A stretch of DNA of 64,000 bases from Pleomorphomonas diazotrophica (GTDB taxonomy: Bacteria > Pseudomonadota > Alphaproteobacteria > Rhizobiales > Pleomorphomonadaceae). The translations under genes were made by a program, and so were the position numbers. Below the pieces are notes generated by a model, which saw nothing but the letters and a program-made list of their open reading frames with translations, made no database searches and had not been told where the DNA came from. Below, in pieces: positions 28,620 to 32,090 of the stretch; positions within the stretch are counted from its first letter, which is position 1; each line of letters opens with the position of its first letter. The stretch is taken from positions 744,001 through 808,000 of the forward strand of contig NZ_PJNW01000002.1 in assembly GCF_002844595.1 (NCBI RefSeq). The letters run 5' to 3'.

Positions 28620-29606
28620 CTACAGGGCGGCGAGGGCCTTGATGCGCTCGATGCCGCCAACCTTCGGCGCCAGGGCGGTCCAGACACTTTCGGCTCCCTG
28701 CGCCCAGGAATCTCGATCTTCCGGGACGATTGTCTGACCGCCTGCCGCTTTTGCGGCTTCCATCGAGACCGTCTCGTCAGCCTGCATCAGTTCGTCGAAA
28801 TAGGCAGATCCCTCCGAGATCGCTGCCGCGAACACGGTCTTCTCGTCGTCGGCGAGGCTGTTCCAGAACCCGGCCGACAGATAGACGGCGCCGGTCGCCC
28901 AGATGTGGGCGGTCTCGATGAGATAGGGCACCACCTCGTAGAGGCGGAAGCCGGCGTAGGCGGACTTGGTAAGATCCATCATGTCGACGACGCCGGTCTT
29001 CAAGGCGTTGTAGGTCTCGGTGATCGGGATGGGCGTCGGCAGGGCACCATAGGCCTTCCAGAGTTCGACGTGCAGCGGGCTCTGGATGACGCGGATGCGC
29101 TTTTCGGCCACGCCCTCCGGCGTCGTCACCGCTTCCTTGGCGAGCAGATGGCGCGCGCCGTAGTTGATGAAGCCAAGGGTGACGAAGCCCTGGCCGGTCA
29201 GCGTCTGCTTGAACTCGTCGCCGATCGGGCCGGAGGTGGCGCGACGGACATGGTCGCGGTCCCGGAAGACGAAGGGCAGGTCGAAGAGCTGTGTTTCCGG
29301 CACCCAGGCCGACAGTACCGACATGGTGGAGAGGCTGGCCTGGATGGAATCGAGACGGATGCCCTCGGCAACCTCCTTCTCGCCACCCAGCGCGGCGTTG
29401 CCGACGATGCGGAAATCGAAGCGGCCGGGGAGCTTGGCTTCCACGAGATCGCGCACCTTCAGCCAGATCTTGGTTTCCGGCTTGTCATCACCGAGCAGCG
29501 AGGCGACGGTCAAGGTGCGCGGCGCGGCGCGGGCTGGCCGGATGATGGACGGAAGGGCAAGAGCGGTGAGACCGGCGGCAAAGGCGCGACGGGTGAGAAT
29601 GGGCAT
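28620..29606 (-). CDS. TRAP transporter substrate-binding protein (DctP family)
   Basis: The 328-residue protein has a TRRAFAAGLTALALP leader that looks like a twin-arginine signal, cut near ARAAPRT. The mature DctP fold shows RFDFRIVGNAALGGEKEVAEG and the conserved GFINYGARHLLAKE segment. The family Arg that binds the substrate carboxylate is expected in the RIRVIQSPLHVELWKAYGA region. It is the last gene of the riboswitch-controlled NIPSNAP-DctQM-DctP operon. The riboswitch, not the protein motif, suggests that the ligand is a thiamine-related compound. Confidence 0.92.
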   Translation of the reverse strand: MPILTRRAFAAGLTALALPSIIRPARAAPRTLTVASLLGDDKPETKIWLKVRDLVEAKLPGRFDFRIVGNAALGGEKEVAEGIRLDSIQASLSTMSVLSAWVPETQLFDLPFVFRDRDHVRRATSGPIGDEFKQTLTGQGFVTLGFINYGARHLLAKEAVTTPEGVAEKRIRVIQSPLHVELWKAYGALPTPIPITETYNALKTGVVDMMDLTKSAYAGFRLYEVVPYLIETAHIWATGAVYLSAGFWNSLADDEKTVFAAAISEGSAYFDELMQADETVSMEAAKAAGGQTIVPEDRDSWAQGAESVWTALAPKVGGIERIKALAAL

Positions 29607-29629
29607 CGAGTTTTCTCCGAGGTTGGGTG

Positions 29630-31423
29630 TCAGACAAGCGCCCAAAGGGCGACGACGAGCGCCATCGCCGAGGTGGCGGCGACGAGAGTGAGGGTCAGCG
29701 GCAGCGCGGCCCGGAAAACGGCGCTGGCGGAGAGGCCGGTGATGCCGGCGGCGACGAACACCAGCACGCCGACGGGTGGTGTCAGCCCACCGATCATCAG
29801 GTTGATCGTGAGAATGACGCCGAAGGCCACCGGATCTATGCCGGCGGCGGTGACCGATGGCAGCAGCAGCGGTGCAAACAGCAAGATGCCGGGACCAACA
29901 TCGAGCGGCCCGCCGACGACGAGCAGGATCAGGTTGGCGATCAGCATGATGGCCAGCGGATTGCCGCCCAAAGCCGTTACCCAGCCGGCCAGCGCCTGGG
30001 GAAGGCCGTCGATGGCCAGCAGGAAGACCAGCGGCGCCGATGAGGCGACGAGAAGGCCGATGGCGGCCGTCTCGCGCCCCGCCTGCAAGAAGGCTGCCCG
30101 GGTGGACCGACGGCCGCCCGGGCCGACCACCGCCGCGATGAGCGCGTAGACCGAGGCGACGGCGGCCGCCTCGGTGGGCGTGGCAATGCCGAGGCGAATG
30201 CCTAAGAAGACCACCAGTGCCAGGCCGAAAACCGGGATCGCGGCGGTGAAGGCGGCAAGGCGCTCCACCCGATGAACAATCGGACGCGTCGGGGTCTCGG
30301 TGGCAAAATGCAGCATCACGGCCATGGCCGCCGCCAGGATCAGACCGGCGACGAGCCCGCCCTCGAACAAGGCGCCGACCGAGAGGTTGGTGGCCGAAGC
30401 GAGCAGCAGGAAGGCGATCGACGGGGGGATGATGTTGGGCAGGACCGCCGTGGCGGCGACGATGGCCGCCGCCTTCTCAGGTTTGACGCCATCATCAACG
30501 AGAGCAGGCGCCAGCACCTTGGCGCCGAAGGCGGCGTCGGCGATCGATGAGCCGGACACGCCGGAGAACATAAGGTTGGTTACGAGCGTCGCCTGGGCCA
30601 TGCCGCCGCGACGGTGACCAACCAGTGCCGAGGCGAAGCGGACGAGGCGGTGGGCCAGACCGCCGGCGTTCATCAGCATGCCGGCAAGCAGGAAGAAGGG
30701 AATGGCGAGCAACAGGAACTTTCCCATGCCCGACACCGTCTGCTGCACGATGGCCGCTTCCGGCAGTCGGGCGCCGAAGGGCACGGCAACGGCGAGCCCG
30801 ACCAGCAGCGAGTGGACGAACGGCGCGCCCGCAGCGAGCGCAAGACAGGCGGCGAGGCAAGCAATAAGGCTCGGCGAGACCACCGGCACCAGCACCGGCA
30901 GGTGGGGCAGGGCGGCGAGGCTCATTCCGCCTGCGACAGTCAAAGCGGTCAGCCAAGAACGACTGCCGGCGACCGATTTCAGCACCACTTGCCCCGCTGC
31001 CAACCCGCCACCGATCGCTACCGGCCAGAAGCGCCAGCTTTCGGGAATGCCGAGAGTGGGCGACGTTCCGCCGATCAGCGCTGCCACCTTGCCGGCGCCG
31101 AGCGTCAGGACCAGAGCCGCGGCGAGCGTGATGGCGTCAGAGGCCACGTCGGCGATCGCTCGCGCCCTTGGACCAAGGCGGCGGGTTGCCACGTCGATCC
31201 GCATGGCGAGTGGTCCGCTGGCGCAAAGCGGCAAGCCGAGGAAGACAAGCGCCGTGTGGAGGAGAATGCCGAGATCCTCGGTGGCGACGAAGCCGGTTGA
31301 GAAGAGGTAACGCAGCAGCGTGGCGCCGAACACCAGCACGAGCAGCGCCGCGAGAACAACCGCCAGCAGACCGGCAAGTACCCGGTCGATCGCCCGGGAA
31401 AGGCGTGCCGCGATCGTCCTCAT
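29630..31423 (-). CDS. TRAP transporter fused small and large permease (DctQM)
   Basis: This 597-residue membrane protein joins a DctQ-like domain of four helices (about residues 1-170) to a DctM domain (about 190-597). The DctQ part includes LVFGATLLRYLFSTGF. DctM marks include LLAIPFFLLAGMLMNAGG, GVSGSSIADAAFGAKVL and TVGGLTPPVG-type residues (MIGGLTPPVGVLVFV) near the C-terminus. The ATG at 31423 overlaps the stop of the NIPSNAP gene by ATGA, so the frame upstream to 31456 is unlikely to be used. Fusion of Q and M is known in many TRAP systems. It works with the DctP protein encoded next. Confidence 0.93.
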   Translation of the reverse strand: MRTIAARLSRAIDRVLAGLLAVVLAALLVLVFGATLLRYLFSTGFVATEDLGILLHTALVFLGLPLCASGPLAMRIDVATRRLGPRARAIADVASDAITLAAALVLTLGAGKVAALIGGTSPTLGIPESWRFWPVAIGGGLAAGQVVLKSVAGSRSWLTALTVAGGMSLAALPHLPVLVPVVSPSLIACLAACLALAAGAPFVHSLLVGLAVAVPFGARLPEAAIVQQTVSGMGKFLLLAIPFFLLAGMLMNAGGLAHRLVRFASALVGHRRGGMAQATLVTNLMFSGVSGSSIADAAFGAKVLAPALVDDGVKPEKAAAIVAATAVLPNIIPPSIAFLLLASATNLSVGALFEGGLVAGLILAAAMAVMLHFATETPTRPIVHRVERLAAFTAAIPVFGLALVVFLGIRLGIATPTEAAAVASVYALIAAVVGPGGRRSTRAAFLQAGRETAAIGLLVASSAPLVFLLAIDGLPQALAGWVTALGGNPLAIMLIANLILLVVGGPLDVGPGILLFAPLLLPSVTAAGIDPVAFGVILTINLMIGGLTPPVGVLVFVAAGITGLSASAVFRAALPLTLTLVAATSAMALVVALWALV

Positions 31424-31749
31424 GGTGTCCCCGAGCCGCCGAGCGGCGAGAACCACGTCGGCTTGAGGATGCGGCTGCGCATGGCCTGTACCAGGGGCGC
31501 CGCCTTGGCGCGGAAGGCCTGCCAGGCAGGGTCGGCCTCCATCGCGGCGCGCCGGCGTTCTCGGTCGGCAAGATCCTCGTATTGCCAGATGTGGACGACG
31601 TCGTTGACGGTGCCGATGTCCTGGGTGAACCAGCCGATCAGCATACCGAGATGGCCTGTTTGAATCGCCATGCCCTCGCGGACATAGAGATCGAGATAGG
31701 TGCCGACATGCGCCGGCTCGATGGTGTAGGTACGTTCGTCGAGAATCAT
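31420..31749 (-). CDS. NIPSNAP family protein under TPP riboswitch control
   Basis: The 109-residue protein has the NIPSNAP dimeric alpha-beta-barrel pattern: DERTYTIEPAHVGTYLDLY at the N-terminus, LGWFT-type core (MLIGWFTQDIGTVNDVVHIW) and YEDLADRERRRAAM. It is the first gene after the TPP riboswitch and overlaps the TRAP permease gene by four bases. Its ATG lacks an obvious Shine-Dalgarno. Function in bacteria is not settled; small alpha-beta-barrel proteins can be monooxygenases or ligand carriers. A link to thiamine compounds is inferred only from the riboswitch. Confidence 0.9.
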   Translation of the reverse strand: MILDERTYTIEPAHVGTYLDLYVREGMAIQTGHLGMLIGWFTQDIGTVNDVVHIWQYEDLADRERRRAAMEADPAWQAFRAKAAPLVQAMRSRILKPTWFSPLGGSGTP

Positions 31750-31790
31750 GGTCGTTCGGCCGTCGTTGGAATGGCGGGCGGCGGAACGCG

Positions 31791-31808
31791 TCAGGCGAAT
31801 GTCTGCAT
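31791..31808 (-). other. Five-codon leader ORF directly after the TPP riboswitch
   Basis: The riboswitch ends in GGAGGGA, a good Shine-Dalgarno, and eight bases later an ATG opens M-Q-T-F-A-stop. The NIPSNAP start is 41 bases further on in another frame. The ORF may be chance or may couple riboswitch control of ribosome access to the genes downstream. Confidence 0.4.
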
Positions 31809-31815
31809 GGCTCTA

Positions 31816-31894
31816 TCCCTCCGCCGGCATGACCCGGATCAGGTTCGTCGGGTTGGAGAAACTCCTCTCAGCCCCGGATGGGGCACCCCGTGAG
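31816..31894 (-). promoter_or_regulatory. Thiamine pyrophosphate (TPP) riboswitch, THI element
   Basis: Read on the minus strand, the segment has every conserved THI-box part. An ACGGGGTGCC start is followed by GGGGCTGAGA (CTGAGA at 31871-31866, the pyrimidine-binding loop). AACCTGATCCGGGTCATGCCGGC and the 3' GGAGGGA end at 31816 come next. The orientation places it 66 bases upstream of the NIPSNAP-DctQM-DctP operon. In alphaproteobacteria such riboswitches usually block ribosome access when TPP is bound; the GGAGGGA end fits that mode. The 190 bases upstream to the aminotransferase gene hold the two divergent promoters and no gene. Confidence 0.96.
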
Positions 31895-32090
31895 ATGCAA
31901 GGAGCTTAGCCGGATGAGGCGTGATGCGCCATAGGCAAAGACCTCAGGCCGAGCCATGCGCCGGGAAAATCACTTGAGGTGCCACGTGGCGCCGATCGCC
32001 CTTTGAACTCGTCTCGGATTATCCGAAAACCGGTTTCCACTTTTCGGCCCGATGCTTTAGGGTCGGGACGTTTTCTGCGATTGATTAGCG

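Follow-up and report, generated by a model that had tools for sequence, protein, structure and literature searches.

A thiamine pyrophosphate riboswitch ahead of a NIPSNAP-TRAP operon in Pleomorphomonas: a candidate thiazole importer

The riboswitch and the operon it heads

The DNA analysed here (the window) is a stretch of 64,000 nucleotides from a contig of Pleomorphomonas diazotrophica, to which all coordinates refer unless a locus is named. On its minus strand lies a thiamine pyrophosphate (TPP) riboswitch followed by three genes encoding a NIPSNAP-family protein, a fused DctQ-DctM permease and a DctP substrate-binding protein, the last two being parts of a tripartite ATP-independent periplasmic (TRAP) transporter. 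The existence of this riboswitch and its operon is near certain. As argued below, the operon may serve as a TPP-riboswitch-controlled importer of thiazole and may have stepped in as thiG disappeared from the clade; we give this reading a probability of about 0.6, while thiamine-related import in general is likely.

The search with cmscan returned a match to the Rfam TPP model RF00059 at 31798-31900 on the minus strand, which covers the full model (1-105 of 105) with 69 bits, above the gathering threshold of 54.3 (E value 3e-12 for 11 kb and 3e-13 for the genome). This agrees with the preliminary description, where a TPP riboswitch had been placed on the minus strand at 31816-31894. The host genome (4.53 Mb in 40 contigs, completeness 100) holds three TPP elements according to Rfam, and the one described here ranks second by score. 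The distance from the aptamer to the NIPSNAP start is 48 nt.

The gene content described earlier, a NIPSNAP gene, a fused dctQM and a dctP downstream of the riboswitch, was found on the same strand. The NIPSNAP-family protein of 109 amino acids (31420-31749, minus strand) matches PF07978 with 99.7 bits (cut-off 22.3) and no NCBIfam model at an E value of 0.001; its gene comes first after the riboswitch in all 12 genomes that share the arrangement (see below). Its stop codon overlaps the permease start in an ATGA (31423-31420). The permease gene (29630-31423, minus strand) more likely begins at the ATG at 31423, as read from the sequence, than at the GTG at 31456 given in the list of open reading frames (ORFs), and its product matches PF04290 (66.6 bits), PF06808 (280.2 bits) and TIGR00786 (290.4 bits, cut-off 268.45). 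For dctP (28620-29606, minus strand), the best start is the ATG at 29606, which yields a Tat-like (twin-arginine translocation) signal, MPILTRRAF, whereas the ORF list had the TTG at 29645. DctP scores 185.5 bits on PF03480 and 196.3 on NF037995 (cut-off 50), and falls below the cut-off of TIGR00787 (157.1 vs. 175.05). DctP, DctQ and DctM domains are encoded together, each with a Pfam score above cut-off, so that the system is a TRAP transporter by domain content.

Between the aptamer and the operon, the leader bears a mini-ORF (ATG CAG ACA NNN NNN TGA; 31791-31808, minus strand) of equal length in 12 of 12 genomes, with a putative regulatory function. It lies on the aptamer's 3' edge and comprises five codons, of which codons 4 and 5 vary across the 12 species. 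Its possible Shine-Dalgarno (SD) sequence, GGAGGGA, sits within the aptamer's 3' part, and a clear SD sequence of the NIPSNAP gene is not evident. Binding of TPP would close the P1 stem across the GGAGGGA region and block translation of the mini-ORF, and NIPSNAP expression would then be lowered via lost translational coupling or via Rho. Repression by TPP is the predicted outcome. A possible hairpin directly upstream of the NIPSNAP start (31753-31788, minus strand) folds weakly, its stability not exceeding that of shuffled sequence (z -0.11), and the leader as a whole folds no better than its shuffles (z 1.23).

Conservation in Pleomorphomonas and the thiamine genes

The set of relatives comprised 60 genomes, the host included, of which 14 belong to Pleomorphomonas. 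In 12 of these 14, a TPP element (67.0-69.1 bits) lies 47-49 nt upstream of a NIPSNAP gene that is 86-100% identical, the genomes without the arrangement being G006 and G007. The gene order pyrG - dctP - dctQM - NIPSNAP - TPP element - aminotransferase is common to all 12. The near-invariance of the aptamer across the 12 species indicates that it is under selection. The same holds for the proteins: the median dN/dS over 66 pairs each was 0.107 for NIPSNAP, 0.161 for DctQM and 0.116 for DctP, so dctQM and dctP are under purifying selection. In a pyrG tree (18 rows from 20 loci, G015 and G016 being left out), the 12 TRAP genomes form one clade with support of 100/100, and G006 and G007 fall outside it. 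The preliminary description had named occurrence in this genome alone as an outcome that would speak against a thiamine role; the arrangement passes narrowly, being carried by 12 genomes that all belong to one clade of one genus. By eye, a protease-like gene was seen between dctP and pyrG in G005, G008 and G013, on the strand opposite to the operon (L069 9787-11040, L070 9747-10996 and L075 1727-2977; split over two frames in L070).

ThiC was found in 0 of the 14 Pleomorphomonas genomes and in 22 of the 60 relatives. Full-length ThiG is present in only three genus genomes (G002, G006 and G007), and the remaining 11 have either no match or a fragment that scores 21.8 bits or less, below the cut-off. 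The TRAP operon occurs in all 11 genomes without ThiG and in one of the three with it (Fisher p 0.033, kinship being ignored although the carriers are one clade). ThiM is found in 14 of 14, so that the 11 ThiG-less genomes have the make-up of a thiazole user, which cannot make the compound and can use it, and all of them carry the operon; the exception to the pattern is G002, which has the operon along with ThiG. Proteins of the TMP-TENI family occur in all 20 genomes of the genus and the family, including all 14 of Pleomorphomonas. The ThiG of G002 (P. carboxyditropha), located elsewhere in the genome, is only 42% identical to that of G006 and may be a regain or a relic; in this species, a TPP element heads an operon at L148 4346-7640 in which thiG is accompanied by thiH and by a gene that looks, by eye, like thiF. 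Two other candidates were set aside: ThiB-type thiamine import, with matches in 18 of 20 genomes, none over the cut-off, and THI4 in place of ThiG, the listed PF01946 matches being short N-terminal FAD-binding pieces (best listed 39.2 bits; 26.6 in the host). PF01946 matches all 20 genomes and all 14 controls and is therefore unspecific here; among the matches listed, no full-length THI4-like one was found.

The place of the missing gene can be pointed to. In G006, G014, G015, G016 and G018, a drug/metabolite transporter (DMT) gene is followed by thiO, thiG, thiE and thiD, with a TPP element before thiO (in G015, the thiG match is split in two and the DMT gene lies at a greater distance); ThiS between thiO and thiG was spotted by eye in G006 only. 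All 12 TRAP genomes have DMT, thiO, thiE and thiD in the equivalent place, and thiG is gone: the end of the thiO match is 25-54 bases from the start of thiE, tblastn with ThiG and ThiS of G006 found nothing at this site in the 12 genomes, and the Rfam scan of the 12 thiO-thiE-thiD stretches (L188, L190-L200) gave no TPP element. The thiO gene has been kept without thiG and under purifying selection (dN/dS 0.105; host copy at L188 5769-6782, contig C11), and the host protein scores 174.6 bits on the ThiO model vs. 244 for G006 (cut-off 250.8). The retained thiO may have acquired a new job.

The two other TPP elements of the host bear on the two halves of thiamine. The one on contig C40 heads ThiM, the thiazole kinase (TIGR00694, 257.9 vs. 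256.4 bits). The one on contig C37 heads an ATP-binding cassette (ABC) permease (PF00528, 107.5 bits) and an NMT1 binding protein (PF09084, 238 bits), which, judged from the TPP control and the fold, are probably ThiX and a ThiY-like protein of a pyrimidine importer; no ATPase gene was identified adjoining this pair (L063 6877-8825). Since pyrimidine import, probably, and thiazole phosphorylation are both under TPP control, the entry of thiazole alone is unaccounted for, unless the TRAP transporter provides it. In a comparison of three of the 12 NIPSNAP aptamers, identity was 69-75% to thiM aptamers of the clade (n=2), 58-69% to those of thiO (n=5) and 60-67% to those of thiX (n=2), which suggests, by a modest margin, that the NIPSNAP aptamer may have been copied from thiM. 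An extra TPP element lies in G013 before a Nudix-like gene and a second ThiD-like gene (L205 5218-6494, ORFs by eye), and G005 and G008 carry TPP elements equal in length to it (119 bases).

Homologous loci outside the genus and the DctP ligand

The NIPSNAP alignment scan of genome contigs, which needs one of two conserved peptides and so may let distant kin escape, gave 31 loci, nine from the genus and 22 others. The nine (seven Pleomorphomonas and two Proteobacteria metagenome-assembled genomes) are genomes already in the set of relatives and add nothing to it. The 22 include Bosea and its kin, Gluconacetobacter, Lampropedia, Stella and Marinobacter. A homologous TRAP adjoins NIPSNAP in 14 of the 22, and Rfam found a TPP element in none of the 22. 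An exact-motif look at the 600 bases preceding NIPSNAP found the combination of CTGAGA, ACCTGA and GGAGGGA-like words at aptamer spacing in all nine Pleomorphomonas loci and in none of 23 other loci, seven of which have single words; this speaks against a sub-threshold riboswitch at those 23. Twelve plasmid records with a DctP of 55-62% identity stood among the best 30 of 1062 matches, and six of these 12 loci were examined, none with a TPP element according to Rfam. Of 385 sampled Alphaproteobacteria, for each of which only the three best first-look candidates were scored, 25, the host included, have a DctQM match at an E value of 1e-60, and none except the host exceeds 41% identity. Rfam scanning of 12 of the 29 other DctQM loci, with flanks of 1.5 kb only, revealed no TPP element in those 12.

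A different kind of neighbour was found at some of these loci. At five of these 20 non-genus TRAP loci, namely L094, L096, L116, L119 and L121, the TRAP or NIPSNAP gene is immediately preceded by genes for a monooxygenase resembling SsuD and a protein resembling SsuA, and the remaining 15 are without such genes. NIPSNAP is present at the loci of Terrarubrum (L116) and Bosea sp. LC85 (L094), and absent from those of Thioclava (L119) and Marinibacterium (L121). These loci resemble the operon studied here in their homologous DctQM (47-51%) and DctP (55-64%) and differ from it in the adjoining Ssu-like genes and in having no riboswitch. With the SsuD equivalog model (cut-off 518.2), the proteins of L116 and L094 reach 411 and 406 bits, and with SsuA_fam (cut-off 163.5) they reach 131 and 92; being below the cut-offs, they are relatives of SsuD and SsuA rather than proper members. 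By eye, the SsuA-like protein of L116 (854-1708), near the SsuD-like monooxygenase, NIPSNAP and TRAP, is without a signal peptide; this locus is possibly an undescribed organosulfur pathway. For the TRAP family, the Ssu-type neighbours hint at a substrate that contains sulfur.

In the binding protein, arginines R152 and R172 (numbered from the ATG) are invariant in all 25 aligned DctP rows, which represent 4 of the 12 genus proteins, 11 of the 14 from non-genus NIPSNAP-TRAP loci, 5 of the 6 from plasmids and 5 more distant ones. Both have aligned counterparts in TRAP binding proteins of the same family whose structures are solved (4n15/4n17 and kin), where the second one presumably holds the ligand carboxylate, as in SiaP. 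The DctP group differs from the solved proteins in the segment that usually reads ENN/ENP: its Asn is replaced by Leu in 21 of 25 rows and by Met, Phe or Ile in four. The two arginines suggest that the DctP ligand is an acid, bound in an unusual pocket. The predicted model of DctP has a mean pLDDT (predicted confidence) of 69.9, with the stretch 182-223 below 50, and because of this low confidence nothing was read from the structure. Taken with the organosulfur-type neighbours, the arginines suggest that the substrate may be a sulfur-containing acid such as carboxythiazole (cHET), the 2-carboxylate of the thiazole half of thiamine, hydroxyethylthiazole (HET). Use of cHET in Ostreococcus tauri requires ThiM, and E. 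coli delta-thiG grows on sub-picomolar cHET, the need for HET being about a million times higher (PMC5899164).

Proposed thiazole import and its rivals

A TPP riboswitch on a TRAP transporter, in a lineage without thiazole synthesis, is best read as control of thiamine-precursor import, narrowed to the thiazole half. At low TPP, the riboswitch would turn on the operon, and the transporter would import HET or, more likely, cHET. ThiM would phosphorylate the imported thiazole, ThiD the pyrimidine brought in by the ThiXY-like ABC importer, and ThiE would join both halves; the operon would have taken over upon the loss of thiG in the clade. In this scheme, repression by TPP, the direction of transport, the substrate and the role of NIPSNAP are inferred. 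A more specific version, which we hold only tentatively, is that of a high-affinity cHET importer that came from an organosulfur-acid TRAP family, acquired its riboswitch as a copy of that of thiM and, in one lineage, took the place of thiazole synthesis, with NIPSNAP acting on the imported cHET.

Several observations weigh against thiazole import. The NIPSNAP-TRAP family outside the genus is without the riboswitch, which means that the wider family is not a thiamine system as such, and 6 of the 14 TRAP-bearing non-genus genomes have full-length ThiG. Among non-genus NIPSNAP genomes, ThiG is absent in 8 of 14 with TRAP vs. 0 of 8 without it (p 0.018), a support that is weak since the TRAP-bearing genomes are mostly Bosea kin and full ThiG is missing anyway from half of the relatives (30 of 60); in this count, Lampropedia G086 was scored as lacking ThiG despite a fragment of 20.5 bits (27.9 with neighbours, cut-off 23). 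Within the genus, G002 holds both ThiG and the operon, and G006 and G007 have ThiM without TRAP. The 12 carriers form one clade and so probably reflect one evolutionary event, because of which the Fisher p overstates the evidence. ThiE passes Pfam and is below its NCBIfam cut-offs (134.1 vs. 145.1), neither ThiXY-like protein has an NCBIfam model above cut-off, and ThiB was the one thiamine importer searched for, PnuT, ThiV and others not being covered. Finally, the HET version is weaker because acids are the best-known substrates of TRAP systems and HET is none.

The preliminary description had proposed that the TRAP system imports thiamine, a precursor or a breakdown product. The genomic context backs import of a precursor and narrows it to thiazole, and the absence of the riboswitch from all 22 homologous loci elsewhere separates the family at large from thiamine. 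Import of thiamine itself, of a phosphate ester or of a non-thiazole breakdown product, pyrimidine included, is rather unlikely in our view. TPP control alone does not tell which moiety is carried, and with no ThiC in the 14 genomes and no ThiB over the cut-off in the 20, an importer for thiamine or pyrimidine is needed as well; however, pyrimidine is suited by the fold of the ThiXY-like importer, which has a TPP element of its own, G006 and G007 likewise have no ThiC and yet do without TRAP while having ThiG, and thiamine is a cation, whereas DctP retains the two arginines of acid binders. Less probable still is the import of an organosulfur or other organic acid with no relation to thiamine, the riboswitch having been captured by chance or being linked to a TPP-dependent catabolic enzyme. 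The riboswitch-free homologues, the Ssu-like genes beside 5 of the 20 TRAP loci and the general preference of TRAP systems for acids would fit such a case, but an aptamer near-invariant in 12 species would not, nor would the fact that the 12 genomes with the thiG scar are the identical set (albeit one clade), and it would be strange for the uptake of an ordinary carbon source to be repressed when TPP is high.

We regard it as highly improbable that the operon exports or detoxifies thiamine-like compounds, or that NIPSNAP alone is of importance, with the TRAP genes merely carried along. NIPSNAP is indeed the first gene, and 8 of the 22 non-genus loci have no close TRAP adjoining (L115 has a distant one, 25-31%); still, the known mechanism of binding-protein-dependent TRAP systems is one of import, and dctQM and dctP, besides being under purifying selection, are directly adjacent in 12 of 12 genomes.

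Thiazole import through a TRAP system would have partial counterparts among known systems. ThiW and ThiU, listed as HET transporters (PMC6593275), share with it the predicted role of bringing a thiazole precursor into cells that do not synthesize thiazole themselves. ThiW and ThiU are not known to be TRAP proteins or to work with a DctP-type binding protein, and the transporter domains found in the operon described here are those of TRAP systems only. The ThiXYZ/ThiY system resembles it in serving salvage, in being under the control of a TPP riboswitch and in using a periplasmic binding protein, but it is of the ABC type, has an NMT1-fold binding protein and serves the pyrimidine half; ThiXYZ is listed for hydroxymethylpyrimidine (HMP) and ThiXYZ2 for vitamin B1 (PMC6593275). 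The main text of three surveys of B1 genes and transporters (PMC6593275, PMC3766115, PMC12442306) names no TRAP transporter, the sole "TRAP" in PMC3766115 being the tryptophan RNA-binding protein, and our searches of open-access papers turned up no TPP-controlled TRAP.

Thiazole importers are a weak spot in the reconstruction of vitamin B1 metabolism: ThiW occurs in only 64% of HET auxotrophs (PMC6593275, 2019), and carboxythiazole is used at sub-picomolar to picomolar levels via carriers of then-unknown genes, transport systems of "unknown sequence identity" (PMC5899164, 2018). A TPP-controlled TRAP transporter in genomes where thiG has left its operon is a concrete candidate for a thiazole importer. 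If this is true, a vitamin precursor would be added to the substrates of TRAP transporters, and Pleomorphomonas would offer a case of a transporter replacing a biosynthetic step under the same signal.

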